Source of the DNA: Nostoc sp. GT001
GTDB taxonomy: Bacteria > Cyanobacteriota > Cyanobacteriia > Cyanobacteriales > Nostocaceae
Assembly: GCF_030382115.1 (NCBI RefSeq)
Contig: NZ_JAUDRJ010000003.1
Coordinates: 2,189,133 to 2,253,132 of the forward strand
DNA length: 64,000 nt
Reading direction: 5' to 3'
Shown here: positions 4,099-23,199 of the stretch, in pieces
Layout: every line of letters starts with the position of its first letter
How positions within the stretch are numbered: position 1 is the stretch's first letter
Made by a program: the position numbers and the translations under genes
The notes under the pieces: generated by a model
The model's input: only the letters and a program-made list of their open reading frames with translations
Told to the model about the DNA's origin: nothing
Database searches by the model: none

Positions 4099-4465
4099 TT
4101 ATTCAATTTGTTGATTTAACCAAGCTTCTAAATCAGAAATATCTAAGAAGTCTAACAAAGCCTCTCCTAATGCCTCCAATTGTTCAATAGATAATCCTTG
4201 AACTCGCTCAATAGTAGATGAATCAATCTCACCAAAACGGCGATTTAGTTGACGTATAATTAAACGTTCTTCGCCTTGCTTATTTCCTTCTTGTATAGCT
4301 TGTTCTCGGTCTTGCTGATAAAGTGGTTTTAATCGCATAATTAACTCCCGATCGTCTTCTTCTGAATTTTGATTAACTTGTAAGTTTTGTCGCAAGTTAT
4401 AAAGTAATTCTAGCGTTGCTCTGCGAAATGGATGATTTGATGGTAATGCTTCTAATTCATCTATT
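4099..4465 (-). pseudogene. C-terminal half of a DUF4351-type gene split by the integrated element
   Basis: This frame carries the DUF4351-like tail common in cyanobacterial Rpn/PD-(D/E)XK-type proteins, including the segment LNRRFGEI and the end LEAWLNQQIE. It has no convincing start; the only nearby candidate is a TTG at 4395. The coding frame is clear up to the 16-bp att core at 4450-4465 and then reaches a stop in element DNA at about 4477. The N-terminal half lies 18.7 kb away at 23184-23729 on the same strand, and both halves read the core in the same phase as IDELE. Joining them at the core gives one continuous protein of about 298 residues. In its present state the gene is interrupted and probably inactive unless the element excises. 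Confidence 0.85.
4450..4465. other. attL core (16-bp direct repeat)
   Basis: This is the left copy of the 16-bp core, identical to 23184-23199. It encodes IDELE on the minus strand in the frame of the split gene, and sequence identity to the right copy stops on both sides of it. Confidence 0.85.
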
Positions 4466-4501
4466 ACACCCCTAATTTACAGCAGGTCTAGACATTAATT
4501 A

Positions 4502-4519
4502 AGTAGCATTTTGAGTAGC
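4502..4519. repeat. Left arm-type repeat (AGTAGC...GAGTAGC)
   Basis: The sequence AGTAGCATTTTGAGTAGC lies 36 bases inside attL and overlaps the integrase stop codon. It differs by a single inserted T, apart from its first base, from the two 18-bp repeats inside the right end. The neighbouring GCTAAAAATC is also repeated at the right end (near 23088). These are probably binding sites for the arm-binding domain of the recombinase. Confidence 0.6.
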
Positions 4520-5688
4520 TAAAAATCTGGACACTCTACAGATGAAACCGCAGGGTGACAATAATATTTGAGTACTGTGTTGACGTTATCGCCTATCCAA
4601 TAGGCTACTTTGTCAGGAGTGTAGCCAGATGCGATCGCCCACGTGGCGAAAGTGTGCCGGGTCGCGTACCCATTCAAGTAAGGGATATCTCCCCGATCAG
4701 CCAAATCCAAAACCACACCACTTTTTACGCCGTAAGATGTAGTTTGCTTATTCCATACGTGAAACAAGGTGTGAGTTCGCATCGGACAGCCAGTTTTTGA
4801 AGTAAAAATCAATTTGTTAGGCTCTGGAGTTTTAGGTTTTATTGATAGCAGCAGTTCTTGAATCTTTGTTCCCTGCTTACAAGGGAAAACTCTACGTTTC
4901 CCATTTTTTGTCCCTTTATTAATCATGTAGCTATTGCAGGATTTGCTAATTGTAATTCGGCTGCAATCCTCGTTTAAATCCGCCCATGTAAGAGCAAACG
5001 CTTCTCCATGTCGGCAACCTGTCCAAAACAGAAACTTGATCAGCGTGGTGTAGTGATTGTAAGCAGGATGTTGCTCAAAAGCAGCAATAATTAAATCTCG
5101 TTGAGCGAGAGTAAAAGCTCGAAAATCTTCCTCAGCGTCACTTCTGCGTTTTGGCTTTGGAATTTGAATTTTAGCAAATGGATTATTCACAATTAATTTT
5201 GATTCACTAGACCACTGGCAGCACCTGGAGAAATATGCCAGTGTTTCATATGCTGTAAAGTGCGAGTAATGCTTTAAAAGCCAGTCCCTTATTTCTGGAG
5301 CATCTTCTAGCGATTGAGTGGGAATTTTGCTGATGATGGAGCCAATTGCTGTGTATTTTCCTAAAATCGTAGTCTCAGCCAACTGAGTTGATTGAAAACC
5401 CCTAAATCTCTCCCACAACTCCCCTAGTGATATTGTGTTAATTTCTGGCTGAACAACTTCTGAACTTTTAGTTTTGAACTGATAGCTAGCAAGCTTTGGG
5501 TCGAAGCGTTCTAGCGCGATGTCATTTGCGATCGCATCTCTCTTGCTCCTCACAATCTCACGGTTGCGCTTGGTATCCTTAAGTCCGGTGCTGATAAAAA
5601 ATTGTTTGGGGAATCCCTTTACCCAAAAACGAATTACTAGTTTTGTTGTCCGGGAGTCGGTGGTAATCCACTTATCTTCAGTGTCCAT
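4519..5688 (-). CDS. Tyrosine recombinase (phage-type integrase)
   Basis: The 389-residue protein has an N-terminal arm-binding domain (about residues 1-80, DUF3596-like), a core-binding helical domain (about 85-185) and the catalytic domain. Catalytic residues visible are Arg226 in TGCRHGEA, Arg344-His345 in YATRHTFATW, and the nucleophile Tyr376 in KYYCH, with a lysine in the hairpin near 261. The usual first histidine of the HxxR box is Tyr341 here. It would catalyse strand exchange at the 16-bp core and drive integration and, with a directionality factor, excision. The start lies 3 bases after the stop of the zinc-ribbon gene, so the two are probably co-transcribed. The stop falls in an arm-type repeat near attL, a placement typical of element integrases. 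Confidence 0.92.
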   Translation of the reverse strand: MDTEDKWITTDSRTTKLVIRFWVKGFPKQFFISTGLKDTKRNREIVRSKRDAIANDIALERFDPKLASYQFKTKSSEVVQPEINTISLGELWERFRGFQSTQLAETTILGKYTAIGSIISKIPTQSLEDAPEIRDWLLKHYSHFTAYETLAYFSRCCQWSSESKLIVNNPFAKIQIPKPKRRSDAEEDFRAFTLAQRDLIIAAFEQHPAYNHYTTLIKFLFWTGCRHGEAFALTWADLNEDCSRITISKSCNSYMINKGTKNGKRRVFPCKQGTKIQELLLSIKPKTPEPNKLIFTSKTGCPMRTHTLFHVWNKQTTSYGVKSGVVLDLADRGDIPYLNGYATRHTFATWAIASGYTPDKVAYWIGDNVNTVLKYYCHPAVSSVECPDF

Positions 5689-5691
5689 TAC

Positions 5692-5970
5692 CTATATGCT
5701 CCCAGTCCCGCCGCATTCAGGACAGCAGAGCAATTCGCCTTCCTCCTGAATTAATCCGCCGCCGTTACAGCTACTACACAGGGTTGCGTTGTCAGCCGCT
5801 GCCGCAAGATAGAACCTGAAGCTTTCCTTGTCAATCTTAGTGTCGTCGTAGTCTGGATCGTCAGCATCCCGCGCCCAAGCCTGACCACAGTCTAAACATT
5901 CCCAATAACCATAATTTTCTTGGTATTGCAGCGTCGTGCAATTGCATTTTGGGCATGTTTCATTAGTCAT
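5692..5970 (-). CDS. Small zinc-ribbon/DnaJ-type Cys-rich protein
   Basis: The start at 5970 (MTNET) is preceded by GGGGAG at a good distance, so it is preferred to the upstream TTG at 5985. The 92-residue protein has two CxxC pairs in the first 35 residues (CPKCN, CLDCG) and a second module CSSCNGGG...CCPECGGTG resembling the DnaJ zinc-finger repeat. It is encoded directly before the integrase in the same operon. That position suggests, without proof, a recombination directionality or regulatory role. Confidence 0.65.
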   Translation of the reverse strand: MTNETCPKCNCTTLQYQENYGYWECLDCGQAWARDADDPDYDDTKIDKESFRFYLAAAADNATLCSSCNGGGLIQEEGELLCCPECGGTGSI

Positions 5971-5992
5971 TTTCTTTCTCCCCAAAGTTCTC

Positions 5993-6487
5993 TTACAAAT
6001 ATCCAGTGCCTTTGCATGTTGAGCATTTTGTTGGGCTGATGCTTATGCCGTCGTAAATTTTCCCTGTACCCCAACAATCCCAGCAGGAAACAGAATTCTC
6101 ATACGCGTCTAGTTCTTCCTGTGTTAGCGGCTCACTTTGTTCGTCAATCTTTTGATCAAACCTTTGAAGCTGTATTTTGTTAGCTAGCTCTTGGATTTTT
6201 TCTATTCTTTGGTTGATTGTTATTCGTGAGATATACTGCTCGCTCAGTATGTGAAAGGACAAGCCTCTTGCTTCTTTCGCCGATGGTGTTTCACAAACAT
6301 TGAGCGCAAATCGCCGGATCAAGCGTAGTAAAAGCTCTAATTCCTCGGTAGGGTTTATATTCCCCATCTCGCTAATTATTTCTTCTAGGGATTTTTCATT
6401 TATTGGCAGGATATTCCAGCCATCGCAAATATTATTTGAATGACTGTCGTCGGGAATTGAGTCTCCATCAATATCAATTTTGCTCAT
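5993..6487 (-). CDS. Hypothetical protein with C-terminal DnaJ-like zinc finger
   Basis: This 164-residue protein has an acidic N-terminus, a central helical region and a C-terminal pair of CxxCxGxG motifs (CWDCWGTG and CSTCKGTG) that should bind one zinc ion. Its last module resembles that of the next gene, so the two may be related in function. The gene follows the 307-base iteron-like region and starts the short leftward operon that ends in the integrase. The promoter and any control by the upstream GTAGAC repeats would therefore also set integrase expression. Confidence 0.6.
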   Translation of the reverse strand: MSKIDIDGDSIPDDSHSNNICDGWNILPINEKSLEEIISEMGNINPTEELELLLRLIRRFALNVCETPSAKEARGLSFHILSEQYISRITINQRIEKIQELANKIQLQRFDQKIDEQSEPLTQEELDAYENSVSCWDCWGTGKIYDGISISPTKCSTCKGTGYL

Positions 6488-6794
6488 GATCGCAAGTTAA
6501 ATTAATTGGACAATCTGTCATTGCAGATTTAAAAATTGTTCAAATTTTTTAAGTTTTTTAAACCCCAAAAATTTTGTCTACAATCGCTAAAATCCTATCT
6601 GGGGCAGGATTTCGCCGTCTACAGCCGAATTTTCGGGGCAAAAAAATTGTAGACGGTGTAGACGGACTGTTGATGGATTTGCAGTGAGGTATTGAGCGAT
6701 CGCACTTCCACCCAAGTACTGGTTAATTAATAGGTAAATTGCCTATAAAGCTTTGCCTACAGTCCGTCTACAGGCTGTAGGCAAACTGTAGACA
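6488..6794. promoter_or_regulatory. Iteron-like region with repeated GTCTAC/GTAGAC motifs
   Basis: No gene is seen in these 307 bases. The motif TGTAGAC or its complement occurs at about 6574, 6617, 6648, 6657, 6766 and 6787, with a variant (TGTAGGC) at 6776. The copies sit in two clusters (6574-6663 and 6757-6793) around an A+T-rich stretch containing TTAATTAATAGG. Such an arrangement suits an origin of replication with iterons, or operators controlling the leftward integrase operon. The choice between these is inference. Confidence 0.5.
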
Positions 6795-8045
6795 TTACTT
6801 TGACCACCTCCAGCCGAGGCGATCGCCATTTCCTTCAACTTCCCCCAATCCCCTATCAGCCATAGAAGCAAAGATGATTCGTACCTCGTCTGGCTGCATT
6901 CTCTCAAACAAGCGGCTAGCTTGCAGCAGGATTCTGGCTTTTAAAACCTCACCTGGGTGCTGTTGACCCCAATCAAGAATGAATTGCTCAAATTCATTCA
7001 TGGCTTTGGCTTGCGATTGCACCTCCTCACTTTCCCCGCCGGAGGTTTCTGGTGTTGCGATCGCAGTTGTTCCCCAATTACTCAGGTCAAGCTCACAAGG
7101 GCAGTCATCGACCATAAACCGCCTTTTACCACCAGCTTTCAACCACTGCTCTAGCTGAGGATCTTTGAGTTTAGTCCTGGCGTAGTCGCGCCCAAACTGC
7201 CCTAATCTCACTAAACAGAAGCAGCTTGAAAGGGTGTCTTTGTCTCCTTGCAAGCCGTAATTCTCAGCCGTGTCATTCTGGGCTAAGGCACAAATGAACT
7301 GTTTGTACCTTCTCCCGCGCTTGGCGTGTCGCTTGATCCAAGTGGTGGCATTGTCGCATTCGTCTACCAAAATGGGAAATTCCTCCGCGATCATGAACCG
7401 TTCTCGACCAGCGATCGCGTTATCTCCTCCTTCACCCCTAAGCTGAACTAGGTCTTCAAGGATTTCTAAGTCTTTACCCATAGCGGTGTCGATGGCTTTG
7501 AAGTTTCCTTTTCTACCAATGACATCAGCTTGATCAATCCACGACCAATCATCCGGTTTAGCGTCGCTGTCGTAGACGATAACGCGACCGCCGATTTTAG
7601 ACGATAGATACTGGGTAAAGGTTGACTTCCCGTCCCCGGTACCGCCAACCAGGGCAACGTGTTTCTGTTTCTTCTGGATGTACTCAACTGGATCGGTGAT
7701 TAAGTTCTCTGGTTTCCAGTTGGCATCGATGGAGCCTACAGTCAGCGCTAGCTGTGCTGTGGGTTGGGTGTTAGCCCTAGCCCACGCTTGGAAGTTGACC
7801 CGTGATGCTCGGTCGATATCGCCTAGCGATTCTTGCAGGAGTTTGGCTGTTTGGCGATGTCTGCGACCGACTTCTAGGCTACCAACGGAGGCCGCTAATA
7901 TCCACGGCTTAGACTCTGGCTTTTGAGTTGCCCCCAGGAATAATAAGCCACCGCTGACAATTAAACTACCCCAGAATGACCACTTGGCACAGGCGTACAT
8001 CTGCAAGTGTTGGTGTAACTGGGAGGGATGTAAATCACTGCTCAT
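6795..8045 (-). CDS. Membrane-anchored FtsK/HerA-like P-loop ATPase
   Basis: The start at 8045 overlaps the upstream stop as ATGA, which favours it over the longer frame; this gives 416 residues. A hydrophobic segment lies near residues 24-40. The P-loop is GGTGDGKST (134-142), followed by an acidic VYDSD strand, and the Walker B is FPILVDECD (223-231). A downstream region of about 80 residues after 340 looks like a winged-helix tail. By family knowledge such ATPases pump DNA, as conjugation coupling proteins, viral packaging ATPases of the A32/FtsK type, or filamentous-phage assembly (Zot-like) proteins. It closes an operon of very small membrane proteins, which fits a membrane-embedded DNA translocation machine. 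Which of the three roles applies is unknown. Confidence 0.7.
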   Translation of the reverse strand: MSSDLHPSQLHQHLQMYACAKWSFWGSLIVSGGLLFLGATQKPESKPWILAASVGSLEVGRRHRQTAKLLQESLGDIDRASRVNFQAWARANTQPTAQLALTVGSIDANWKPENLITDPVEYIQKKQKHVALVGGTGDGKSTFTQYLSSKIGGRVIVYDSDAKPDDWSWIDQADVIGRKGNFKAIDTAMGKDLEILEDLVQLRGEGGDNAIAGRERFMIAEEFPILVDECDNATTWIKRHAKRGRRYKQFICALAQNDTAENYGLQGDKDTLSSCFCLVRLGQFGRDYARTKLKDPQLEQWLKAGGKRRFMVDDCPCELDLSNWGTTAIATPETSGGESEEVQSQAKAMNEFEQFILDWGQQHPGEVLKARILLQASRLFERMQPDEVRIIFASMADRGLGEVEGNGDRLGWRWSK

Positions 8046-8404
8046 ATCCCTAACAGAACCCCCACAGCAACTAACCCAACACGGAGCAAAAGAATATCTT
8101 TGACCTCTGGCACGGCTTGCCGCAAGTAAAGTGTGAGAATTCCAGCGATCGCCAATACTCCCAATACCCCCAAGCGGATAAACCAAGGGATGGGTACACT
8201 TACCCAGCAGCTACTCAATAAAGCGGGAATCGCCACGCTGGAGACAAGGGTATAAGCCAAATCTGGCAGATTGTCTGGGAGGGCAATCGCGTCCCTCCAC
8301 CCCTTTTTAAATTCCTCCAGTTTGGATAACTGGGGGTTAGGGACTGGGGAGTAGTGACCGCTGCTGCTCGGAACCTCTACGACTATTTTTTGCTCATCTG
8401 CCAT
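8042..8404 (-). CDS. Small integral membrane protein
   Basis: The start MADEQ at 8404 is used because the 36-residue upstream frame ends just inside it. The 120-residue protein has a hydrophilic N-terminal half and two or three hydrophobic segments in the second half (about residues 48-68, 72-90 and 103-120). It overlaps the ATPase gene by four bases, indicating translational coupling and possibly a direct partnership with the ATPase in the membrane. No family is recognised. Confidence 0.55.
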   Translation of the reverse strand: MADEQKIVVEVPSSSGHYSPVPNPQLSKLEEFKKGWRDAIALPDNLPDLAYTLVSSVAIPALLSSCWVSVPIPWFIRLGVLGVLAIAGILTLYLRQAVPEVKDILLLRVGLVAVGVLLGI

Positions 8405-8504
8405 ACTGCACCTCGATTTTGAGGTAAAAGGGGCGATTGCTTTCCTGTTTGCACAGGGATGCGATCGCAATTACCAGAGCCGCTATGGTGCAAATTAATA
8501 TCAT
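8394..8504 (-). CDS. 36-residue single-span membrane peptide
   Basis: A GGAG ribosome binding site lies ten bases before the ATG at 8504. The frame encodes a hydrophobic helix over residues 1-18 (MILICTIAALVIAIASLC) and then a basic tail of 18 residues. Its stop overlaps the start of the next gene by 11 bases, and its ribosome binding site overlaps the previous stop. It belongs to the tiny-gene operon leading to the ATPase. It could be a small membrane or coat-like component; this is not established. Confidence 0.5.
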   Translation of the reverse strand: MILICTIAALVIAIASLCKQESNRPFYLKIEVQYGR

Positions 8505-8512
8505 TGCTTGAT

Positions 8513-8695
8513 TCACTCCTGCTCCTTCTTTGCGATCTGGGCATTCAGGTCAACCATCGCCTGGTAAGCGTCACCGAGTGTTGCGTCTGCTTCATACCCC
8601 TCAGTCTCTATTTTTTGATAATCAGGGTGGTTGTATATTTCAGAGATTTGTTTTGAGGTTTCAACAACCAGGTCAGCAAGATTTTTGTCAGTCAT
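8513..8695 (-). CDS. Small helical hypothetical protein
   Basis: The internal start MTDKN at 8695 is used because it overlaps the preceding stop by eight bases (ATGACTGA). The 60-residue product is acidic and helical, ends in a charged tail (KKEQE) and has no membrane span. It is part of the overlapping leftward operon that runs to the ATPase. Function unknown. Confidence 0.5.
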   Translation of the reverse strand: MTDKNLADLVVETSKQISEIYNHPDYQKIETEGYEADATLGDAYQAMVDLNAQIAKKEQE

Positions 8696-8918
8696 TGCTG
8701 TTCCCCCAGGTGCTGTACTTGCCATATCCGCTAGTTTCGGTGAGTCGGTCGTTGATTCGATTGATAACTTCGTTATCACTGATGGGCAGTGGCTTTCCTT
8801 GGAGATAAGCGGCTGAGATTTCGGCGCACTCCTGGGCATTTGCACCATTGCCTAGTAGCTGCCCCTCTGGGAAGCCAACATGGTGAATTTCGTTACTGGG
8901 ATTTGGTCGTTGAGTCAT
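8688..8918 (-). CDS. Small hypothetical phage-type protein
   Basis: This 76-residue protein starts at an ATG at 8918 and overlaps the next gene. It is hydrophilic, with a central segment rich in Ala and Gly and no membrane span or cysteine cluster. It is the first gene of the tightly overlapping operon ending in the membrane ATPase. No family recognised. Confidence 0.45.
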   Translation of the reverse strand: MTQRPNPSNEIHHVGFPEGQLLGNGANAQECAEISAAYLQGKPLPISDNEVINRINDRLTETSGYGKYSTWGNSND

Positions 8919-9005
8919 ATAATTTGGATGATGTTTAGTTTTCGCAGCGGCGGGGCTACATCGTATTGGTGGGCGATCGCGGATCTGTGCGGATGGCGAT
9001 CGCCT

Positions 9006-9371
9006 TTAAAAATCGGTTTTACTTGCACTGGTCGAGTTGAAGTTGGTTACAACCCAAACCTGTGTAGAGTTGCGGATTGATGGCTTAAACTCGATTGGAC
9101 GCCGGGTATCTAAACAGATAGCGCGACCATCATTTAGTTTGACGTGTAAGTTCTTCCCATTTTTGGAACGGGAGAAGAGTTGACCGACTTCGAGCAATGC
9201 CCAGGTAATCGGCGAGTTACCCACTACATAGTCGGCTTGATGGCTTTCGTACCCTTCCGAGAGTGGGTCTATAGTTAAGTCTTTCCACTCCTTCTTTCTG
9301 CCTTTTCGGCTGTTAACGGTGCTTGGCAGTCGCCCGTTAAGGGGTTTATCTGTCGTCTGTTGGTCGGTCAT
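9006..9371 (-). CDS. Hypothetical protein of the element
   Basis: The 121-residue protein has a basic N-terminal third (RKGRKKEWKD) and a C-terminal part rich in beta-type sequence. It starts 6 bases after the 9378-9731 gene, so the two are co-transcribed leftward. No motif or family is recognised; a nucleic-acid-binding role would fit the basic stretch but is inference. Confidence 0.5.
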   Translation of the reverse strand: MTDQQTTDKPLNGRLPSTVNSRKGRKKEWKDLTIDPLSEGYESHQADYVVGNSPITWALLEVGQLFSRSKNGKNLHVKLNDGRAICLDTRRPIEFKPSIRNSTQVWVVTNFNSTSASKTDF

Positions 9372-9377
9372 AGTGCG

Positions 9378-9731
9378 TTAATAGTCGCTCAATAAAGTGG
9401 GTTGTTTTTGTGGCTCAATTCCTTGCACTGTGGGTCTTTTAGCTTTTTGCGCATCTCTGGAATCGGTGACAAGTTCCTCTAGTAAGCCTGCTGCAATGTC
9501 GGCTCCCAGTTCAATCAGGTCGTTTTCTTCGAGAGAATCGCACCAAACGATAATTTGTTGGGGTATATCCTCAAATCCCCATTCTTTCTTCTGGTAGGCA
9601 ATGGTGGTTTGTTCCCGCAGCGCAAGGAAGATTAGGCAATTTAGCCCAGTGTTTTGAGCGCGGTTGAAGCTCCCCATGATATGGGCGAGGATGTCTAGTC
9701 GGTTGATTTCTGTTACATTCATTTCGTCCAC
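9378..9731 (-). CDS. Hypothetical helical protein of the element
   Basis: This 117-residue, acidic, mainly helical protein has a hydrophobic stretch near residues 32-42 but no clear membrane span. Starts at 9731 or 9722 (MNVTE) are both possible; neither has a strong ribosome binding site. It leads the two-gene leftward unit with 9006-9371. No family recognised. Confidence 0.5.
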   Translation of the reverse strand: MDEMNVTEINRLDILAHIMGSFNRAQNTGLNCLIFLALREQTTIAYQKKEWGFEDIPQQIIVWCDSLEENDLIELGADIAAGLLEELVTDSRDAQKAKRPTVQGIEPQKQPTLLSDY

Positions 9732-9866
9732 TCTTTCAATGTTTTTTTTGAACCGACCGAGTTTAGGATATCCAGGGCACTTTGCTCTGGATTTTTAATG
9801 GCTGCTAACCCTGCGATCGCTACGACTTACGGGTGAATGCAGTTGTCCGTTGTCCGTTGTCACTTG

Positions 9867-9910
9867 CCCCTAGCAGGTCTTTGGTATTTGCTCAGTGCTG
9901 GCAGGCTGCT
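9867..9910. repeat. 44-bp direct repeat, copy 1
   Basis: Forty-four bases starting CCCCTAGCAGG and ending GCAGGCTGCT are identical to 10161-10204. The copies flank the 71-residue gene at 9910-10125, so a unit of about 294 bp is bounded by direct repeats. Confidence 0.85.
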
Positions 9911-10125
9911 TATCTCTTCTGGGTAAGGCTTAAGGCTGCAATCAAAGCATCCGAGATTTCAACTGCACGGGTTATTTGTAACTCCCAACTGAAATTGTTG
10001 GGATTCGCCAGCAATCCCTGCAATGCCATCGCTGCAAATAGCTCACGCTTATTCAGTCCATCTTCAGTCAGTTGCTCGTCTTGGTTCCACGCAATGGGAA
10101 AGGCGTTGTGCTCACCAATGGTCAT
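9910..10125 (-). CDS. Small phage-type protein (LNKRELFAAMALQGLLANP family)
   Basis: The 71-residue protein contains a short motif pattern I associate with a small protein often found in prophages: a KRE-F-AAMALQGLLANP stretch followed by an AVEISDALI helix. Its role is not known. It lies between two identical 44-bp repeats and ends at the edge of the first. The upstream 10254-10340 region with inverted and direct motifs may hold its promoter. Confidence 0.6.
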   Translation of the reverse strand: MTIGEHNAFPIAWNQDEQLTEDGLNKRELFAAMALQGLLANPNNFSWELQITRAVEISDALIAALSLTQKR

Positions 10126-10160
10126 AGGTACTCCGTCTAAAAGGTGTTGGTTGTCAGCTT

Positions 10161-10204
10161 CCCCTAGCAGGTCTTTGGTATTTGCTCAGTGCTGGCAGGC
10201 TGCT
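10161..10204. repeat. 44-bp direct repeat, copy 2
   Basis: This copy is identical to 9867-9910 and in the same orientation; identity stops at both ends. It lies 36 bases upstream of the start of the 71-residue leftward gene. Confidence 0.85.
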
Positions 10205-10253
10205 ATCTCTGCCTGGTTTGGGGTGGGTGAGATTTGTTGTGTTCGCTTGCAAA

Positions 10254-10340
10254 TTTAGTTGTTTGCGCGTACAACTAAATATAGTCTAGTACTACACGCA
10301 ATAAATGTAAAGATAGTGTGCGTATACAATAAGGAGTAGT
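10254..10340. promoter_or_regulatory. Divergent promoter/operator region before the ribbon-helix-helix gene
   Basis: Three related sites of the form TTGCGYGTA-AC are seen: TTTGCGCGTACAAC at about 10262, an inverted copy around TAGTACTACACGCAA at about 10287, and GTGCGTATACAAT at about 10319. They lie between a leftward and a rightward gene and just before an AAGGAG ribosome binding site at 10331. They are good candidates for operators of the regulator encoded at 10343. Confidence 0.5.
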
Positions 10341-10342
10341 GC

Positions 10343-10693
10343 ATGGGTACAACCAAAGATGAGAAAACCGTTACATGGACAGAGGAAGCAAAACTTGAAT
10401 CTGTCAGTCTCTCCAGAGGCCGTGGCGTTGCTGGAGGAAAAAGCGAATCTATTAGGAATCAGCAAAAGCGAAATAATCGAGCGCATAGCTCGCAATCAAG
10501 TATCTTCAGCCCCGGAACAGCAATTACTGGGGGAGTCCTTGACAACCTGATCGATGAATATTGCGATCAGGTAGCAAATAAAGAGAGTGAAATTCAGCGC
10601 CTTGTTGACGAAGTAAACCGCCTTAAATCAAGGGTTCAAGAGTTTAAAGTACTTCGAGACGAACTACAAAAACAATTTCAAGAAGCTTCATAA
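10343..10693 (+). pseudogene. Ribbon-helix-helix regulator with compensating frameshifts
   Basis: AAGGAG at 10331 supports the ATG at 10343, whose frame is open to 10693 (116 residues). In that frame the N-terminus and a C-terminal coiled coil (about residues 65-116) look natural, but the middle does not. In the +1 frame, 10359-10550, the sequence reads as a clear ribbon-helix-helix domain (NLNLSVSPEAV...GISKSEIIERI). One extra base near 10392 and one lost G in the GGGGG run near 10530 would explain this. The ancestral protein was probably an RHH DNA-binding domain fused to a coiled coil that autoregulates through the upstream sites. The present protein either lacks DNA binding or is made from the inner ATG at 10359, which has no good ribosome binding site. 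Confidence 0.6.
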
Positions 10694-10694
10694 T

Positions 10695-10728
10695 AGCCGT
10701 CCTGCCTACTCTGGCAAGGACGGCTTTT
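10695..10728 (+). terminator. Rho-independent terminator after the regulator
   Basis: AGCCGTCC...GGACGGCT forms a strong stem (12-13 bp with one bulge) followed by TTTT, starting just after the stop at 10693. Confidence 0.85.
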
Positions 10729-10737
10729 CATGGATAT

Positions 10738-10761
10738 GTCGCCTACTCAATAGCAGGCGAC
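10738..10761. terminator. Hairpin between convergent genes
   Basis: GTCGCCT and AGGCGAC form a 7-bp stem around a 10-base loop. It lies ahead of the stop of the leftward KGK gene and could help end transcription from that side; there is no long T-run. Confidence 0.45.
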
Positions 10762-10771
10762 GCATCTGTGA

Positions 10772-11098: not shown

Positions 11099-11195
11099 TT
11101 TGACTTTCTCTTTCGGTAAACAAAATGGCGGATCAAGCGCCAACTCGATCCGCCTTCCCTAATCTTTCCCCACTGACCACCAAGGAATAAAACCA

Positions 11196-11424: not shown

Positions 11425-11456
11425 TGCGATCGTTGTTCCCCAACGACCAATGCCCA

Positions 11457-15771: not shown

Positions 15772-15772
15772 T

Positions 15773-18460
15773 ATGACGGACGCTATTAATCCCCGTCAAT
15801 TTGCATCTTTAGACTACGCTGACGCGGATATGTATGGGGCATTACTAGAGCGTCCAGCAACGGGTACGCCTTTGGAGCGACCTCAGCCTATTGTGCTTAC
15901 TGGGCGTGAAAATGCCAGCGAGAGACAGATGGAAAAGCGCCTGTGGGATGAGGAGTGGAAACGAACGGAAGCAGCGCGAACGGCACGGAAAAACGCTGAA
16001 GCAGCTAGAGAAGCCGAAATACTAGGCAGAAATGCATCCCAACGTCAGGCGATTGCTAACCGTGTAAAGGGAACCGATGCACCGGAATTACTGCCACCAA
16101 AGTCGGAATCACCACTCGCGCAATTACAGCGATCGACGCCGGAACGCCAGCCATTACCATCCACGGGTAGCCCACCTCCCACGATCGGCGGTACATCAGT
16201 CCGTGCTGACGCTCTTGTAGAACCCACAGCAACACCACGACCAGCGGCGATACGTGAAGCGATCGGCAATACCGTTGGTGGCATTGGTCAATCGCTACCG
16301 AAGTCCTTACCCCAGGCGGCGGGAAGACTCATTGTTCCTGGTGTCGGCGCTGGCTTGACGTTCGCAGGTGCTTTAATTGCTGGGCAGTCCGTTCAGCAAG
16401 CTGCTGCAACTGCCGCAGTCGTAACAGCAGGCAGTGTTGCGGGCGGACTTGTTGGTACTGCTGTTGGTGGGCTAATTGGCGGATACGTTGGTTCAATGAT
16501 CGGCGGTTTCGCTGGTGGTTATCTCGCGAATGCACTTTTCCCACAGCAATTACCATCGACAGCAGCAAAGCACGAACAATACACGCCAAACTATCAACCT
16601 TACATAGGAGGGCAGGGGATCGGCATATCGTATTACGTATTCTGGTCGATGAAATTGGGTAATGGAACTGTCAGTAATTTCCAGTCAGCGCCAATTAGCG
16701 GGGCTATTACCGCTTTTAAAACCACACGATTAAGCGATGGACGTTGGCAAGTAGAGATTTTCTCCAATGATGTAAGCACGGGTGCGTCAGTCGTTGGGAA
16801 TGCAACAACCAGTGAACCTTATGTGACCTCTATTTCCCGTGCAGACGGTCAACGGGATACCGCACCGGATAGACGCGGGTACAACCCAGCGCCAGCGGAC
16901 AATACGCCACCGCAATACAGTTATTCGCCAATCGGCGGCGACAACACCATACCATCGGGTTTACCGACAGCGGGTTTAAATAAAGGCAAAGATAAGCAGA
17001 TTGCTCCATCCATGCCGTCAAACAATACGCCGAATGGAGCGCCCGGCTTTGTTGGTCATGGTGGACTTGCGCCGTCGTACCTACCCAATCCAGAACACCA
17101 GCCGTCCAACGGTGGGGGTATGTTGCCGCAAATGCAGCCGTTGCCACAGCGTCAACCACTGCCGTTTGCTGAACCGGAAGATATCGCTGTACCACGCATT
17201 ACACCCATGCTTTCAAGCGGTGAAGCATCCACAGCAACAAATCCGTCAACTTTCGCCCATCCGGCATACGTGCCAGAAACAGCGAAACCTATACCGATTA
17301 GTGATGCTCTATCGCCCGTGCCAAAGGCAAAGTCAGCACCGATTGCAAAAACGCCAACAGAAACGGCACTAGATCAGCAGAAGAAAGATTTTGAGGAACA
17401 GATTGGACGCATCACAGCAATTGCAACTGCAATTGCGGCACTTACACCAGCGATTCAAGGGTTGCCAGATGCGATCGCAAGTAACCCGAATGTACGCGCC
17501 GCCAATAGAGACGACGTACAGGGTGCAGTCTGTGAGATATCTCAACCTACTGGATGTCTTGGTGCGCCCATCAAACAGGCAGAGGATGCAGCAAAGGCAA
17601 ACGGAACGAAACTTGACGAAATCAACGCAGCGCTGGGTGCTGGTAATGCTGGAGCCAATGCTGCACTCTTAGCAGGACAGCAAACTATTTTAGAAAGATT
17701 GGGCGATCAACTTCCTGGGGGAATTGGTGGGAAGTTATCCCGTTTTGCTGATTGGATGCATCTAGATCGGGTGCTAAATATTATGATTCTTGCCGCCACT
17801 GTTCACAATGCTTTGATGCTGTCCAATGATATAGGACAAACCCTTATAGGAGCAATTAACAATGTTCTTCAATTCATAGGATTAAAGAAAGAAGACGGGA
17901 GCGCATTTGATATTGGCTCAATCATCAGTGGCTCTATTGAAAACTTAATCAAAGGAGCCATAGGATCTGAAAATTATCAAGAGCTAACAACAGCTTGGGC
18001 TAAAGCCAATAGAATATACCAGGCAACAATTAATATTGCAAATTCATTTACAAATATCGGTCATACAATTACCAATGCTTTAGAGGTTGTTGGTGGGATG
18101 CAAGGGAAGATAGGAAATGCTCTAAGAATTTGGGGTGTAGTTGGAGAAAAGGCTTATCAATGGTTTAATCCACAACCAAATTATCACAGTCGAATGTTAA
18201 GTTTTTTTGAAAATGCTCAACAAGGTGCAAGCACGATTCAAATGGTTACTCAAGCACCAATAGACATTGTAAATGCTGTCACTGAATTTAATAATTCAAC
18301 TACAGAGTTAGCCAAAGCAGTTAAAGAAGATCCGGAAGTGTCTAATCGTGGTGTTGAGATACAAGACGCGCAACAAACAAAAGTTGCACAGGAAGAAATT
18401 AAAACTGTTTCTCAAGGTGTACTAACTGGCTTAAGCGATGTATTTAATGCAAATGAGTAA
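15773..18460 (+). CDS. Large structural-type protein with glycine-zipper membrane region
   Basis: This 895-residue protein is the largest in the cluster. Residues 1-120 are charged and helical. Residues about 182-258 form Gly/Ala-rich hydrophobic segments (such as GGLVGTAVGGLIGGYVGS) typical of glycine-zipper membrane insertion. A Pro-rich linker spans about 370-525. The last 270 residues are helical and amphipathic, and more A+T rich in base composition. It could be a membrane-penetrating or spike-base protein or a DNA-ejection protein. I do not see tape-measure repeats. It is followed 2 bases later by the 272-residue gene. The function is inferred only from architecture and context. Confidence 0.6.
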   Translation: MTDAINPRQFASLDYADADMYGALLERPATGTPLERPQPIVLTGRENASERQMEKRLWDEEWKRTEAARTARKNAEAAREAEILGRNASQRQAIANRVKGTDAPELLPPKSESPLAQLQRSTPERQPLPSTGSPPPTIGGTSVRADALVEPTATPRPAAIREAIGNTVGGIGQSLPKSLPQAAGRLIVPGVGAGLTFAGALIAGQSVQQAAATAAVVTAGSVAGGLVGTAVGGLIGGYVGSMIGGFAGGYLANALFPQQLPSTAAKHEQYTPNYQPYIGGQGIGISYYVFWSMKLGNGTVSNFQSAPISGAITAFKTTRLSDGRWQVEIFSNDVSTGASVVGNATTSEPYVTSISRADGQRDTAPDRRGYNPAPADNTPPQYSYSPIGGDNTIPSGLPTAGLNKGKDKQIAPSMPSNNTPNGAPGFVGHGGLAPSYLPNPEHQPSNGGGMLPQMQPLPQRQPLPFAEPEDIAVPRITPMLSSGEASTATNPSTFAHPAYVPETAKPIPISDALSPVPKAKSAPIAKTPTETALDQQKKDFEEQIGRITAIATAIAALTPAIQGLPDAIASNPNVRAANRDDVQGAVCEISQPTGCLGAPIKQAEDAAKANGTKLDEINAALGAGNAGANAALLAGQQTILERLGDQLPGGIGGKLSRFADWMHLDRVLNIMILAATVHNALMLSNDIGQTLIGAINNVLQFIGLKKEDGSAFDIGSIISGSIENLIKGAIGSENYQELTTAWAKANRIYQATINIANSFTNIGHTITNALEVVGGMQGKIGNALRIWGVVGEKAYQWFNPQPNYHSRMLSFFENAQQGASTIQMVTQAPIDIVNAVTEFNNSTTELAKAVKEDPEVSNRGVEIQDAQQTKVAQEEIKTVSQGVLTGLSDVFNANE

Positions 18461-18462
18461 CT

Positions 18463-19281
18463 ATGGCACTACCTGAAAACCTTGGCAGTTTTGAGCATTT
18501 ACAGAATGTCTATCGTCAACAATTTAATCGTCAGGTTTCAGAATATTTCAAAGATTTGGGAGACACTTGGGAACCAGAAATTAACACCTCACGCGGTTCA
18601 CTGCGAACAGCTTGCACAATGACTGATGAAGATAGCGCCCCAGTCATGGCAATGAGGCACAAACTTCTATACGACGTATTAGGCTATGGTCGGTCAAACT
18701 TGGCTGTTTTATATGGTAGAAATGAAAGTCAAGATATCCCAGTTACAGGACATCCTAAAGTCTGGTTTTACTTCTCTCAGGATGCTGCATCTGTAGCAGA
18801 AGGTACATCAAAATTAGATGCAGAATGCAGTTTTCGATTAATGGATGAGACACAATCAACTATCACAGAGTCGAAAGCAAGAACACTAGCAACAGAAATT
18901 AAAAATTTATTTGTTGTTGCTAAAGAAGGAATCATCCTAACCAAAGGTAAAAATCAATATTTGTATTTTCATAAAGAGAAAGGTTACAGGTTAAGAGTTT
19001 ACGGCAACACAGAAGCTGATGCTGTAGATGTAATAAAAAAGTTGCTTCAGCTAACCAATACTACTTACGATCAAGAGCGTCTGACTATCGCAGTGCCCAA
19101 AAGATCCAATACGTCTGCACCAGAGACACAAATTGTTTACGGACAGTCCACTAAAAAGAAGCGATTCCGCCCAACAGCTAATGTGAGGTTTCGGTACGCC
19201 TATCTCGAAATTCCGGGTAGAGCTAATCCTGTTTTTTTGGTTGACACCACATATCGTTATGGTGGTTTAGTTGCAGTATAG
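18463..19281 (+). CDS. Hypothetical 272-residue protein, candidate virion component
   Basis: The protein has a helical N-terminal 60 residues and then an alternating alpha/beta body. Two beta-rich parts (about residues 85-165 and 190-270) end in an aromatic strand (YLEIPGRANPVFLVDTTYRYG). It lacks membrane spans and known motifs. The length is in the range of double-jelly-roll capsid proteins of tailless viruses, but nothing in the primary sequence proves this. It is coupled to the 895-residue gene and followed by a 113-base gap with an imperfect hairpin near 19316-19340. Confidence 0.5.
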   Translation: MALPENLGSFEHLQNVYRQQFNRQVSEYFKDLGDTWEPEINTSRGSLRTACTMTDEDSAPVMAMRHKLLYDVLGYGRSNLAVLYGRNESQDIPVTGHPKVWFYFSQDAASVAEGTSKLDAECSFRLMDETQSTITESKARTLATEIKNLFVVAKEGIILTKGKNQYLYFHKEKGYRLRVYGNTEADAVDVIKKLLQLTNTTYDQERLTIAVPKRSNTSAPETQIVYGQSTKKKRFRPTANVRFRYAYLEIPGRANPVFLVDTTYRYGGLVAV

Positions 19282-19394
19282 ATTAAAACCACAAAATCAC
19301 TCCATGATCCAAGGAAACTTTAGAAGTTTCCGAAAGCCTAGAACCTCTTTTTTGCTTGCTATAAAAGATTTGCAGGCATTACTGAGTATTTTTT

Positions 19395-19751
19395 ATGGCA
19401 TCACGAGTTAAAGGTGTTGAAAACGCGCCTCATGTCATTGGCACAGGAGAGAATAGGGTTCTACTGGTTTTGCCAGATGTCTACGATGGAATTGGCACTA
19501 ACTTAGGAGTTGTCAAACTTGTTGGAGATCCTCCTGCTGGGGTTCCCTCTACAACCGTTGGCCGCGCGATCGCCGAAGGGTTGATTCGCAAGATAAAAGT
19601 CAGTTATATGGACGGAACAAAACGTAAGACTGCCACTTTAGTAGTAGCTGGAGACAAAGCAGGTCAGGCGCGGGCAACTCTTACAGGAAAAACTTACCGA
19701 ACCAAACTAATCAAAACTGCCTATTACCCCACTAGCATCACCTTGGGTTAA
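19395..19751 (+). CDS. Small beta-rich protein, paralogue of the next gene
   Basis: The 118-residue protein ends in an alternating beta pattern (IRKIKVSY...KRKTATLVVAGDKAGQA). Its C-terminal 70 residues line up by eye with those of the 121-residue gene at 19802, including a shared G-(L/I)-(I/L)-R-(K/R) start, a K-R-T/K-x-T basic turn and an AxDK motif. No ribosome binding site is obvious. Two adjacent, similar small proteins in a structural cluster suggest capsid or fibre subunits; this is inference. Confidence 0.55.
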   Translation: MASRVKGVENAPHVIGTGENRVLLVLPDVYDGIGTNLGVVKLVGDPPAGVPSTTVGRAIAEGLIRKIKVSYMDGTKRKTATLVVAGDKAGQARATLTGKTYRTKLIKTAYYPTSITLG

Positions 19752-19801
19752 TTGCGGACAGTTCATTCTACTTACATTAATTACTTTTTTAGGATTTAAA
19801 A

Positions 19802-20167
19802 ATGCCAAAACTCAAAAGATTGGTCGCTACCATCGGAACTGCCAAATATCCTTTTAAGGGCACTGATGGATTATATGTTGGTGCAAATGCGACTTCAACC
19901 GGAATCGCTGTTTTAGATGAAGCTGATTTGGATTTGCCCGATTATCCAGTTAAAGAATTACTTCTTAAAGGTATCCTTCGCAGGGTAAGCGCAATTGTGC
20001 TAAATAGCAGCACGAATAAGCGAACTACAATCAAAATGCTCGTTGCAAAAGATAAGTTGGCTACAGCATTAGATGATTTGATTGACAACACAATTACAAT
20101 CCCTGGAGGAACATCTGGAGTTATCAAGTCGGTAGGCTTTGCTCGTCGTGTAACCTCCCGTGGGTAA
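19802..20167 (+). CDS. Small beta-rich protein, paralogue of the preceding gene
   Basis: This 121-residue basic protein has the same C-terminal layout as the 118-residue neighbour (GILRRVSAIV...RTTIKMLVAKDKLA). The N-terminal 50 residues differ, with a Gly-rich loop (FKGTDGLYVGANATS). It overlaps the next gene by eight bases. A duplicated subunit pair is the most economical reading. Confidence 0.55.
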   Translation: MPKLKRLVATIGTAKYPFKGTDGLYVGANATSTGIAVLDEADLDLPDYPVKELLLKGILRRVSAIVLNSSTNKRTTIKMLVAKDKLATALDDLIDNTITIPGGTSGVIKSVGFARRVTSRG

Positions 20168-20525
20168 TTGGGAATTGGTGGGGGAACTAACTGTTAGTAA
20201 CAACTGGCAATTATTCCCCAATGAGGTAATTTCAGAAATTTTCCGAATTACTACAACAATTCAAAATTTGGATGATTGGAATAAATGGAAATTTAGAAGC
20301 GCTGCTTATCTTCGCTTTTACTATGCTGATGGTAGCACCTCCCCTGCCTACTACATAAAAGTCAACAATACTGCAATTCTTCGTGAATTTACCATTCCAG
20401 AGCCTTTACTGACAGCAGGATATCACATCAGAACGCCTGCGATTATTAGAGCATCCAGGTATTTGCCAATTACACCTAATTTAAACTTTGCTCAGTGGAA
20501 TTTGAAGTTAGAAGCTTGGTATTAA
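20160..20525 (+). CDS. Hypothetical beta-sandwich-like protein
   Basis: A GTG at 20160 overlaps the previous stop, giving 121 residues. The protein is rich in aromatic residues and strands (LRFYYADGS, YYIKVNN) and has no membrane span. Such a composition is common in phage fibre or capsid accessory proteins. No family recognised. Confidence 0.5.
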   Translation: MGNWELVGELTVSNNWQLFPNEVISEIFRITTTIQNLDDWNKWKFRSAAYLRFYYADGSTSPAYYIKVNNTAILREFTIPEPLLTAGYHIRTPAIIRASRYLPITPNLNFAQWNLKLEAWY

Positions 20526-20529
20526 ATAA

Positions 20530-20844
20530 ATGATTAACAATCCAGCAAGTATTTCAATTCCTATTTTTGATACTTGCGTTCACGACGAAAAAGAGCTTAC
20601 GGCTAATGTCGCCTCAGTGATTCTCAAGCCTAATGGAGAAAGAAAGTATGCTGCTTTTATCAATAATTCCAAAATAGAAATTCTTTTGGTGTTGAGTGAA
20701 CTGAATAAAGTCACCAACAGCAAAGGATTACTTATTAAGCCCGGTGGCAGCTACGAAATCAACTTTAATAATCTTTACGTAGGAACAGTTTGCGCTGTTT
20801 CTAAATTTTCTTGCAAACTTTCTTTTGTGGAGTGTACTGAATAA
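20530..20844 (+). CDS. Small beta-rich protein, possibly related to the next gene
   Basis: The gene encodes 104 residues. A central pattern of L-K-P-N-G-E-R-K-Y-A-A-F-I-N-N-S and a later G-G-S-Y-E-I-N-F has the same order of elements as the next gene (N-S-N-R-K-G-A-T-V-W-N-E-S ... G-G-Y-Y-E-V-P-F). The two genes overlap by one base (TAATG). They are probably divergent copies of one phage-type fold. Confidence 0.55.
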   Translation: MINNPASISIPIFDTCVHDEKELTANVASVILKPNGERKYAAFINNSKIEILLVLSELNKVTNSKGLLIKPGGSYEINFNNLYVGTVCAVSKFSCKLSFVECTE

Positions 20845-21155
20845 TGGGTCTTGTTAATCCGGCAGTAGTAACAGTAACTGAATCAACTAGTGGCACATCA
20901 ACCCCAACCACTGTTGCTTCTAGCGCTACTAGTGTGACAATCTTGGCTGCCAATTCCAACCGCAAAGGTGCAACGGTTTGGAATGAAAGTACTGCTATCT
21001 TATTTATTGAATTTGGTGCTACAGCAACAACGAGCGCTTTTACCGCTAAATTATTTGCTGGCGGATATTATGAAGTGCCATTTAATTACACTGGCGTAAT
21101 TAGTGGGATTTGGTCTGCTGTCAACGGAAACGCTCTTGTTCGGGAGTTGACTTAA
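20844..21155 (+). CDS. Phage-type small beta protein (NRKGA...GGYYEVPF)
   Basis: The 103-residue protein resembles a protein type I know from phage structural regions: a Thr/Ser-rich start, a SVTILAANSNRKGATVWNES-like core, then FAGGYYEVP and a final IWSAVNG strand. Those proteins are usually annotated as hypothetical virion or tail-associated proteins. It is in a chain of closely spaced genes, with the next start 2 bases after its stop. This gene is the best single sign that the cluster is virus-derived. Confidence 0.6.
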   Translation: MGLVNPAVVTVTESTSGTSTPTTVASSATSVTILAANSNRKGATVWNESTAILFIEFGATATTSAFTAKLFAGGYYEVPFNYTGVISGIWSAVNGNALVRELT

Positions 21156-21157
21156 GA

Positions 21158-21604
21158 ATGCCTTTATTTCAATCAGCATTTATAAGTAATTCTCCTATTT
21201 ATTTTGAATATTTTCACGACCAGGCAAAGATATTGTCAGGCAGCGTTATCCAATCACCTTTAAGTTCTTCTTATAAGTATGGATTTATAGCCTTTCAAGA
21301 GCCACCAGCAATTGATAATAGCTGGGTTTTTTATCGCTCTCTACAACCTGGAAATTATCGCCTGTACTTTTTATGCAATGTTGGCAATCAGTTTGGAAAA
21401 CTCAAATTAGAAGTAGATAATTCTTTGGCATTTGACAACTTAGATTTCTATCAAAACGGAGTTAGTCTTCACCAAACATTAACCAAGGACATTGCTATTA
21501 CTGAAGATGGATTGCATGAATTCAAATTTACTATCTTCGAGAAAAACCCTTTGGCAACTGATTACTATTGCTCGATTACAAAAATATGGGCATTGCAAAT
21601 TTAA
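21158..21604 (+). CDS. Hypothetical beta-rich surface-type protein
   Basis: The start MPLFQ at 21158 lies 2 bases after the previous stop. The 148-residue protein is rich in aromatic and beta residues, and the patterns LQPGNYRLYF and GLHEFKFTIF recall carbohydrate-binding-type beta sandwiches. It has no signal peptide or membrane span. It may be a distal fibre or receptor-binding component; that is inference. Confidence 0.5.
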   Translation: MPLFQSAFISNSPIYFEYFHDQAKILSGSVIQSPLSSSYKYGFIAFQEPPAIDNSWVFYRSLQPGNYRLYFLCNVGNQFGKLKLEVDNSLAFDNLDFYQNGVSLHQTLTKDIAITEDGLHEFKFTIFEKNPLATDYYCSITKIWALQI

Positions 21605-21681
21605 ATTTAGCTGACCCAATAGAATAAGATGTCTTGGCAATCCTTGGGCACTTTCGAGATTACAAGTACATATCTTTACTC

Positions 21682-22047
21682 ATGAAGATTGACATTAACA
21701 ACGCGCTTACTATTATTCTTGGGCTGCTTACTTTGATAGGAGCTATTTACCGATTGGCACAGGTAGAAGCAAATATCAATGCCAAAATCAACAGAGTTGA
21801 AAATACTGTATTAGCAGCTGTTGATCACCTGAAGGATAATTTTGTTGATCGGTTGTACACAGTTGAGAAAAAGGTAGACGTGCATCTAACCGAATACAAC
21901 GAAAAGAAACTTTTTGTTGAGTATCGGCTTAATGGTATTGAAAACATGGTCAAGCACAAGTTTGACAGGCTTGCCAACTGGGTTAAGCAGATAGCTAGCT
22001 TCTTGAACAAGCAATCTAACTTTCAGATCCGCGATGACAAGTTCTAG
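21682..22047 (+). CDS. Membrane-anchored coiled-coil protein
   Basis: The start MKIDI at 21682 is preferred, giving 121 residues. A single membrane span lies at about residues 8-25 (LTIILGLLTLIGAIYRL), followed by a long helical coiled coil with charged heptads. This layout occurs in phage holin- or spanin-like proteins and in membrane tethers. It is the last rightward gene of the run before the leftward 22059-22412 gene. Confidence 0.55.
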   Translation: MKIDINNALTIILGLLTLIGAIYRLAQVEANINAKINRVENTVLAAVDHLKDNFVDRLYTVEKKVDVHLTEYNEKKLFVEYRLNGIENMVKHKFDRLANWVKQIASFLNKQSNFQIRDDKF

Positions 22048-22058
22048 TCACTGGGGAT

Positions 22059-22412
22059 TCACTCTAGTAAGTTAGGTTCTGGGGTAGTGGCAATGGACTG
22101 AATAATTAGGTCAAAATGACCGGAAATCGCCTCATCCCAAGTTGAGTAGAGACGTTTTTCACCATTACAACTGCCTCCAGTTACTAATGACTCGAAAATT
22201 TGGGGTTTTTCATTAGTCCCAAGGTTTATCCCAAGAAATATAGTTGAAACACTGATATAACCTTTAAGAACAGAAAGCAAAACCTGCGTGTTAGCTTCTG
22301 TCCTCCAGATTGCCCATTCTTCAAAGTTAACAGCAACAGGTGTATGGCCTTCTAACTTGTAGTATCGATCAAACATGATTAAGTAAAGGAATTCGTGATA
22401 TTTACTAGACAT
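22059..22412 (-). CDS. Phage-type hypothetical protein (RYY-GHTPV...YSTWDEA family)
   Basis: The 117-residue protein has the order of motifs seen in a small phage/prophage protein type: RYYKLEGHTPVAV near residue 17, EEW near 33, VSTIFLGIN near 58, F-ES-V-GG near 75 and YSTWDEAISGH near 90. Its function is unknown. The start at 22412 overlaps the stop of a possible 56-residue upstream gene; an inner ATG at 22376 would fit the family's usual start. It is transcribed against the structural cluster. Confidence 0.65.
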   Translation of the reverse strand: MSSKYHEFLYLIMFDRYYKLEGHTPVAVNFEEWAIWRTEANTQVLLSVLKGYISVSTIFLGINLGTNEKPQIFESLVTGGSCNGEKRLYSTWDEAISGHFDLIIQSIATTPEPNLLE

Positions 22413-22575
22413 GATTGAATACTACGTTCAGAATTGCAAACCAGAAGGCAAAGCCAAGGCACAGTATACCTATAAGCTGTATGCGTCCCCAGGGATACCC
22501 ATACAAATCATCGTAATAGGCTATAAAGGTCGATGGCAGGGAAATTAGCGATTCTAGTAACTCTTGGAGATCCAT
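22405..22575 (-). CDS. Possible 56-residue membrane protein
   Basis: From the ATG at 22575 the frame gives an acidic N-terminus, an aromatic middle and a hydrophobic helix (IQLIGILCLGFAFWFAILNVV). The stop overlaps the next start by eight bases. The other strand has a 45-residue frame (22411-22548) in the same place, without a ribosome binding site, so the choice is uncertain. Confidence 0.4.
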   Translation of the reverse strand: MDLQELLESLISLPSTFIAYYDDLYGYPWGRIQLIGILCLGFAFWFAILNVVFNHV

Positions 22576-22578
22576 ATA

Positions 22579-22794
22579 ATGAGAGCTAAATTTTTAGCAG
22601 AAAGCGTAACTAATCATGCCAGTGGTAACACAGTAGTTAACTTAGCTCCAGTCCTTAAAAGCACTGAAGAGAACAAATCCTTTTGGCAAGCGACACCTAG
22701 CGGCAAGCTAGAGATGTGTATCACCAATCCCAAGGCAACAGAATTTTTTAAAGCAGGTGTTGAATATTACGTTGACTTCACTCCGGCAACTTGA
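22579..22794 (+). CDS. Small phage-type protein (MRAKF...YYVDFTPA)
   Basis: The start at 22579 has TTGGAG 9 bases upstream. The 71-residue protein carries the features of a small phage protein family: MRAKF at the start, FWQATPSGKLEM in the middle and YYVDFTPA at the end. The function is unknown. A frameshifted second copy lies at 11196-11424. The gene is followed by a very strong terminator at 22823. Confidence 0.7.
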   Translation: MRAKFLAESVTNHASGNTVVNLAPVLKSTEENKSFWQATPSGKLEMCITNPKATEFFKAGVEYYVDFTPAT

Positions 22795-22822
22795 AGACAA
22801 CTTGGAGTTAAGTCAGAGATAA

Positions 22823-22867
22823 CTTACAGTCCAGTGGACACGATCACAGTGTCCACTGGACTGTAAG
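22823..22867 (+). terminator. Perfect 19-bp hairpin terminator
   Basis: The arms 22823-22841 and 22849-22867 are exact reverse complements (CTTACAGTCCAGTGGACAC and its complement) around a 7-base loop. They are followed by CGTTTTT. It closes the rightward structural-type transcription unit. Confidence 0.9.
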
Positions 22868-22993
22868 CGTTTTTATTCAAATTAGTCAAAGCTTTAGTGG
22901 CGTTTACCCTTGATAGACAAGACTTTCAGAGAAGAGCGTTGGCTTAATTTAGTCAAGATTTAGTCAAGGGCAAAATTTGGAGGCTGAAAGTAG

Positions 22994-23041
22994 TGGGTGA
23001 CGAGGGAATCGAACCCGCAACCAATAGATTAAGAGTCTATT
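22994..23041 (-). tRNA. 3' half of a tRNA-Lys(CUU) gene (fragment)
   Basis: On the minus strand the sequence holds an anticodon stem-loop (AATAGA, loop CTCTTAA, TCTATT), a T-arm (GCGGG TTCGATT CCCTC) and an acceptor 3' strand GTCACCC plus A. The matching 5' acceptor strand and D-arm are absent upstream, where element repeats begin. It is therefore a tRNA remnant of the type left by integration into a tRNA gene, not a working tRNA. Confidence 0.75.
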
Positions 23042-23050
23042 AGTCAAAAT

Positions 23051-23134
23051 GAGTAGCATTTGAGTAGCAAAATTCCTGCTTCGATCGCTAAAAATCAGCA
23101 GAAGAATGGGGCTTTTGAGTAGCATTTGAGTAGC
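23051..23134. repeat. Right arm-type repeats (two 18-bp GAGTAGCATTTGAGTAGC copies)
   Basis: Identical 18-bp repeats lie at 23051-23068 and 23117-23134, both in the orientation of the similar left-end copy. The right attachment core follows 49 bases later. They are probably recombinase arm-binding sites. TTAGTCAA-type repeats also lie nearby (about 22880, 22950, 22960 and 23040). Confidence 0.65.
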
Positions 23135-23183
23135 GAAAAGAAAGTATTGGCTCAAAGCCTTGCCAGCAGAAGGTACATAGAAG

Positions 23184-23199
23184 TTCTAATTCATCTATT
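23184..23199. other. attR core (16-bp direct repeat)
   Basis: This is identical to 4450-4465 and read in the same phase by the N-terminal half of the split gene. Confidence 0.85.

Follow-up and report, generated by a model that had tools for sequence, protein, structure and literature searches.

A window of 64,000 nucleotides (the whole stretch of DNA analysed here) from the Nostoc-type cyanobacterium Nostoc sp. GT001 carries an 18.7-kb mobile element inserted precisely within a gene of the DUF4351 type. We consider it quite likely that this is a member of a Nostocaceae family of integrative elements whose own tyrosine integrase placed it at a 16-bp attachment site (attB) in mid-gene, and that no developmental programme is needed to account for it. 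Integration would split the gene, which would be rejoined when that enzyme excises the element, as is always the case in conservative site-specific recombination. The insertion is defined by the following features.

4450..4465, no strand: left 16-bp core (att), exact repeat TTCTAATTCATCTATT
23184..23199, no strand: right 16-bp core (att), exact repeat TTCTAATTCATCTATT
4466..23183, no strand: body of the integrative element; the site is empty in seven congeners
23088..23729, minus strand: 5′ half of the split gene, a 213-residue open reading frame (ORF) whose end is encoded by the element; the native gene extends down to 23184
4099..4465, minus strand: 3′ half of the split gene
4519..5688, minus strand: tyrosine integrase, 389 residues (Phage_integrase 4.3e-15, Arm-DNA-bind_2 1.1e-5; phrog_1)

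The two cores are identical and TTCTAATTCATCTATT is found nowhere else in the window or, indeed, in the genome. When the 400-bp stretches round both ends were shuffled (2000 shuffles) the longest exact match was 14. Both gene halves are read in a common frame and join into a protein of 298 residues, in which the core forms codons 177–182. The start is 530 nt away from it and the stop 348 nt, which places it truly in the interior of the gene. These results reproduce all coordinates of a preliminary description, which had proposed 16-bp cores read in one phase and a joined protein of about 298 residues. Its placing of a recombinase gene beside the left core also holds, the 3′ end of the integrase gene being located 53 bp inside that core.

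In seven congeners (G034, G028, G020, G010, G036, G019 and G002), the DNA flanking the element aligns through the core at syntenic loci, which shows that the uninterrupted gene does exist in close relatives. The core sequence is exact in six of these and carries one mismatch in G036. The orthologues of G034 and G028 (97% and 96% identity) are intact, stop-free and 298 residues long. An uninterrupted orthologue with the predicted junction, which the preliminary description had proposed to look for, is thus present, and the two halves belong to a single protein and not, as it had considered, to different ones. Protein matches with E≤1e-60 occur in 112 of the 148 genomes searched, paralogues included. 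Neither an empty site nor a circle junction was found in the assembly, which holds the integrated form only. Judged from this anatomy, the insertion is precise and in principle reversible, and the gene would be expected to be rejoined on excision.

The integrase ORF is open and carries the motifs R, RH and YY that a tyrosine recombinase should have. The other genes and sites of the element are:

6795..8186, minus strand: P-loop ATPase with weak HerA/terminase-like matches below cut-off (PHROG 0.006)
12403..14802, plus strand: VapE-like and DUF3854 primase-helicase (PF05272 1e-68, PF12965 7.7e-30)
15773..18460, plus strand: 895-residue conserved protein with a weak tape-measure-like match (phrog_167, 9e-5)
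18463..19281, plus strand: 272-residue conserved family marker, with matches (E≤1e-10) in 83 out of the 217 family genomes
19395..19751, plus strand: 118-residue conserved protein
4501..4519, plus strand: repeat aagtagcattttgagtagc, candidate arm-type site, its role inferred
23051..23068, plus strand: first copy of repeat gagtagcatttgagtagc, candidate arm-type site, likewise
23117..23134, plus strand: second copy of repeat gagtagcatttgagtagc, candidate arm-type site, likewise
22994..23041, minus strand: 3′ half of a tRNA-Lys(CTT), inside the element near its right end

The remaining cargo is a run of proteins without recognised function, and the element genes are open. For virion or packaging genes there are only the weak PHROG matches of the ATPase and the 895-residue protein. 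The best PADLOC score among nine element proteins was 1.1e-6 (a 97-residue zinc-ribbon-like protein against PDC-S64), the rest being 7e-4 or weaker. A complete tRNA-Lys gene about 156 kb away shows one mismatch to the 3′ half in the element, and this 3′ half with its neighbouring repeat is a probable relic att site of a former or other integration. A doubled TTTAGTCAAG-type repeat (about 22947–22967) lies beside it, and a perfect-looking terminator-like stem-loop of 19 pairs is present at 22823–22867, near the right end of the element. In a relative, G020, one element is surrounded by three copies of a 208-bp repeat, in which a tRNA-Lys 3′ half and arm-like repeats are found.

As judged from its sequence relatives, the element belongs to a family of integrative elements which is widespread in Nostocaceae and was not found in the phage and viral collections searched. 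Relatives of the integrase are found at E≤1e-40 in 125 of the 217 genomes. A tblastn comparison of 24 element proteins with 42 loci indicated that gene order is largely kept in many, while several loci share few genes. The 272-residue protein has no match in phage records and is encoded in two plasmid records. The circular plasmids pHT582-2 and pHT582-1 of Nostocales HT-58-2 carry relatives of the 895- and 272-residue genes and are both annotated with ParB and an integrase, and one of them with ParA. The wider family can thus also occur off the chromosome, in a plasmid-like form. Scans of IMG/VR with the 118-residue alignment, the integrase and the ATPase gave zero relatives; a genome-contig search with the integrase also found none, and with the 118-residue alignment it found 10 loci, in Nostoc, Tolypothrix and Desmonostoc. 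In G086 three copies of the 272-residue gene, with equal scores, occupy distant places on one chromosome, which suggests recent movement within that genome.

Clear terminal repeats (17–208 bp) were identified in 12 of 20 relatives examined, and the eight without a clear att repeat were left out of the count of sites at gene ends. The core lies at or near the 5′ end of the ORF formed by the joined flanks in G037, G080 and G086b, and at or near its 3′ end in G086a, G014, G002, G148, G150, G151 and G012. The farthest of these cases is G086a, with 109 nt to the stop past the exact part and more repeat pieces beyond. In G016 and G020 the joined flanks include no ORF of at least 90 residues across the core. 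Integrase relatives place related elements at many other sites and the integrase clades largely track target types; where no repeat had been mapped, the target was judged by eye from the flank. A target switch from the integrases of molybdopterin genes was considered and set aside: identity is highest there (62%), but the branch is long and shares a weakly supported fork with other clades.

A sister element is located in tRNA-Phe of the same genome (C3:417784-436569), between copies of an imperfect repeat of roughly 45 bp. Over 5.9 kb its DNA is 91.5% identical to that of the window element, and five of the proteins compared (p111, p121a, p82, p92 and p113) are 99–100% identical. Its integrase is different: it has 380 residues, its Pfam match is below cut-off and it shows only short local similarity to that of the window element. 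Since parts of the backbone are near-identical and the integrases differ, backbone and integration module have been exchanged. The family exhibits similar backbones with different integrases and sites.

The interrupted gene itself has several particular features, located in the part left outside the element.

4117..4293, minus strand: DUF4351 domain (PF14261) in the 3′ half, from orthologue residues 235–293 converted to window positions
4099..4338, minus strand: candidate internal ORF of 79 residues, RpnS-like, predicted from sequence and starting at gene codon 220
4345..4349, minus strand: Shine-Dalgarno-like GGGAG, 6 nt upstream of the internal ATG

DUF4351 is the sole Pfam domain of the target gene and is found, in C-terminal position, in 35 of 37 homologues. 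The Rpn genes, according to Zhong et al. (PMC10327210), act as toxin-antitoxin genes, an internal start giving rise to a small C-terminal protein. This protein is annotated as DUF4351 in some species, and four-residue repeats, variable in number, begin 8–20 residues past the internal start. In the family of the target gene, 59 proteins fit the pattern (61 of 120 did not), and in 58 of these the length of the spacer preceding the DUF4351 core is divisible by four. Methionine 220 is invariant in all 37 aligned proteins, and an internal methionine is present in each of the 89 proteins fitting the start pattern (31 of 120 did not). The internal start was also checked at the DNA level, where 27 of 33 loci yielded 28 rows. 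A Shine-Dalgarno-like site occurs at the right distance in 27 of the 28, against 495 of 5130 upstream in-frame control positions, and the start codon is ATG in 26 rows, CTG in one and GTG in one. Within the site the glutamate codon is GAG in 27 of 27 cases (19% elsewhere in these ORFs) and the arginine codon CGG or AGG in 25 of 25 (16% elsewhere). A control weakens this codon argument: 11 of the 32 conserved two-fold columns in 19 full-length genes are fixed for one codon in any case. Of 10 glutamate columns, only that of the site is fixed on GAG, the rarer codon.

No link between the N-terminal domain and the PD-(D/E)XK nucleases of Rpn was obtained with Pfam, PDB profiles or hhalign, and the gene is therefore termed Rpn-like and not Rpn. 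By its predicted features, the integration target resembles an Rpn toxin-antitoxin gene, a point new to this analysis. Cyanobacterial DUF4351 genes generally display length steps of four residues, together with an internal ATG that is conserved and preceded by a Shine-Dalgarno-like site, which suggests that such genes beyond this locus are candidate gene-within-a-gene systems.

The core is positioned between the N-terminal domain and the internal start, and about 100 bp separate the left core from the Shine-Dalgarno-like site, which is outside the element. The element would break the long protein and leave the 79-residue antitoxin-like ORF whole. The integrase gene reads toward this ORF, and no terminator-like site was called on that strand between the integrase stop and the ORF. 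Promoter-like sites are no more numerous than in shuffles, and we do not propose a promoter for this internal ORF.

The comparison of near-orthologues covered the eight whose DNA identity is 90% or more. Three (G034, G028 and G020) are open and five (G036, G023, G010, G019 and G002) have a frameshift and/or stop without any element. The split gene is probably accessory and often lost. Both halves in the window are undamaged. The nifD gene of the same genome is in two pieces (C3:278228-279550 and 305091-305207), about 25.5 kb apart, and a 433-residue recombinase-like ORF, presumably XisA from its location and a Pfam match below cut-off, adjoins the second. Compared with this single ORF by BLASTP, the window integrase gave no match at E≤1. 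The hupL-type matches in the same genome form one open frame.

The repeat, the empty sites, the integrase gene, the element family and the sister element can be read directly from the DNA, and we infer an active integrase, a 16-mer which is its dedicated site, a recent insertion and the absence of a programme. Several observations weigh against this reading of an insertion by the element's own integrase. The pairwise ratio of nonsynonymous to synonymous substitution rates (dN/dS) is 0.107–0.121 against the three open orthologues, a sign of purifying selection on a gene whose halves are undamaged, and the changes specific to this genome are 17 synonymous and 4 nonsynonymous. The gene has thus been under selection along most of this lineage. 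This past selection and the intact halves fit a recent split, which we consider probable, and may also agree with a gene that is still restored in some cells. Moreover, the site in 10 of the 12 mapped relatives is at a gene end, which is kept, and among family members a site in mid-gene is unusual. No excision is seen in the assembled sequence. The presence in the assembly of the integrated form only would also agree with a dead insertion, in which the ability to excise has been lost and the gene is a split pseudogene. This appears unlikely given the open integrase ORF with its motifs, the identical cores and the open element genes. The preliminary description had favoured programmed excision of the nifD kind. 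Its precise insertion into one gene, in the same phase and with restoration expected, stands; the programme is unsupported. Any conservative site-specific integrase leaves an anatomy which can be restored in frame, and in-frame restoration is therefore not evidence of a programme. A programme by which the element departs in heterocysts, or in cells of another type, and the protein is restored in them seems to us very improbable, even though the anatomy is the same, the genome is of the heterocyst type with its own nifD in two pieces, the halves are undamaged and dN/dS is low: the gene has no known heterocyst role, it is broken in five of eight close orthologues, and the integrase gave no BLASTP match to the recombinase-like ORF of the nifD element.

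Integration by the element's own enzyme might also serve a purpose. In this tentative extension, which is compatible with the preferred explanation and which we regard as doubtful, the choice of attB would disarm the host by breaking a toxic long Rpn-type anti-phage protein while sparing the antitoxin-like ORF, into which the integrase transcript may continue, and would re-arm the host on leaving. The Rpn biology described in PMC10327210 is in favour of this extension, as are the DUF4351 domain, the four-residue steps, the invariant internal methionine, the Shine-Dalgarno-like site with its rare codons kept, the location of the core between N-terminal domain and internal start, and the lack of a called terminator-like site toward the ORF. 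It is opposed by the N-terminal domain, without profile link to Rpn nucleases, by the half of the homologues (61 of 120) outside the spacer pattern and by the high general codon conservation. In addition, none of the 12 other mapped elements lies in such a gene, and this is a single insertion.

In the literature searched, where subscription journals were thinly covered, we found neither a description of this element family nor an instance of an insertion that targets a DUF4351 or Rpn gene. Our analysis brings to notice a large Nostocaceae family of integrative elements, and replaces a developmental story by a testable one of conflict between element and host. The target gene makes the case more interesting than the preliminary description had thought, on other grounds: the site separates the N-terminal domain from an antitoxin-like ORF in a defence-like gene. 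If disarming is true, it would constitute a reversible disarming of host defence via attB choice, within a gene-within-a-gene toxin-antitoxin gene. Cyanobacterial DUF4351 genes may be overlooked candidates for such toxin-antitoxin systems.

Among known systems, the interruption elements of heterocystous cyanobacteria (nifD, hupL, fdxN and others; PMC4874684) likewise carry their own recombinase and are bounded by short direct repeats in a coding gene. Here, in contrast, the target is not a heterocyst gene, and BLASTP finds no match between the integrase and the recombinase-like ORF of the nifD element in its own genome. In its available text, Hilton et al. 2016 (PMC4874684) already describe element-interrupted genes beyond nifD, fdxN and hupL, in 22 ortholog groups; DUF4351 is not named among these, one hypothetical protein and two transposases there being unchecked. 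SPbeta in spsM, phiSa3 in hlb and helper-embedded phage-inducible chromosomal islands are also reported to interrupt genes reversibly by a site-specific integrase. In contrast to these, the window element has no recognised phage structural genes beyond the weak PHROG matches, and its excision is predicted from its anatomy. Like other tyrosine-integrase integrative elements, it has a Phage_integrase domain next to att and the same backbone is found at different sites. It resembles those in tRNA genes through its sister in tRNA-Phe, with near-identical parts of the backbone, whereas its own target is the interior of a protein gene. Finally, the target gene shares with the Rpn genes, as PMC10327210 presents them, a C-terminus of the DUF4351 kind and variable four-residue repeats, with a candidate internal start upstream of these; it differs in an N-terminal domain not recognised as an Rpn nuclease.

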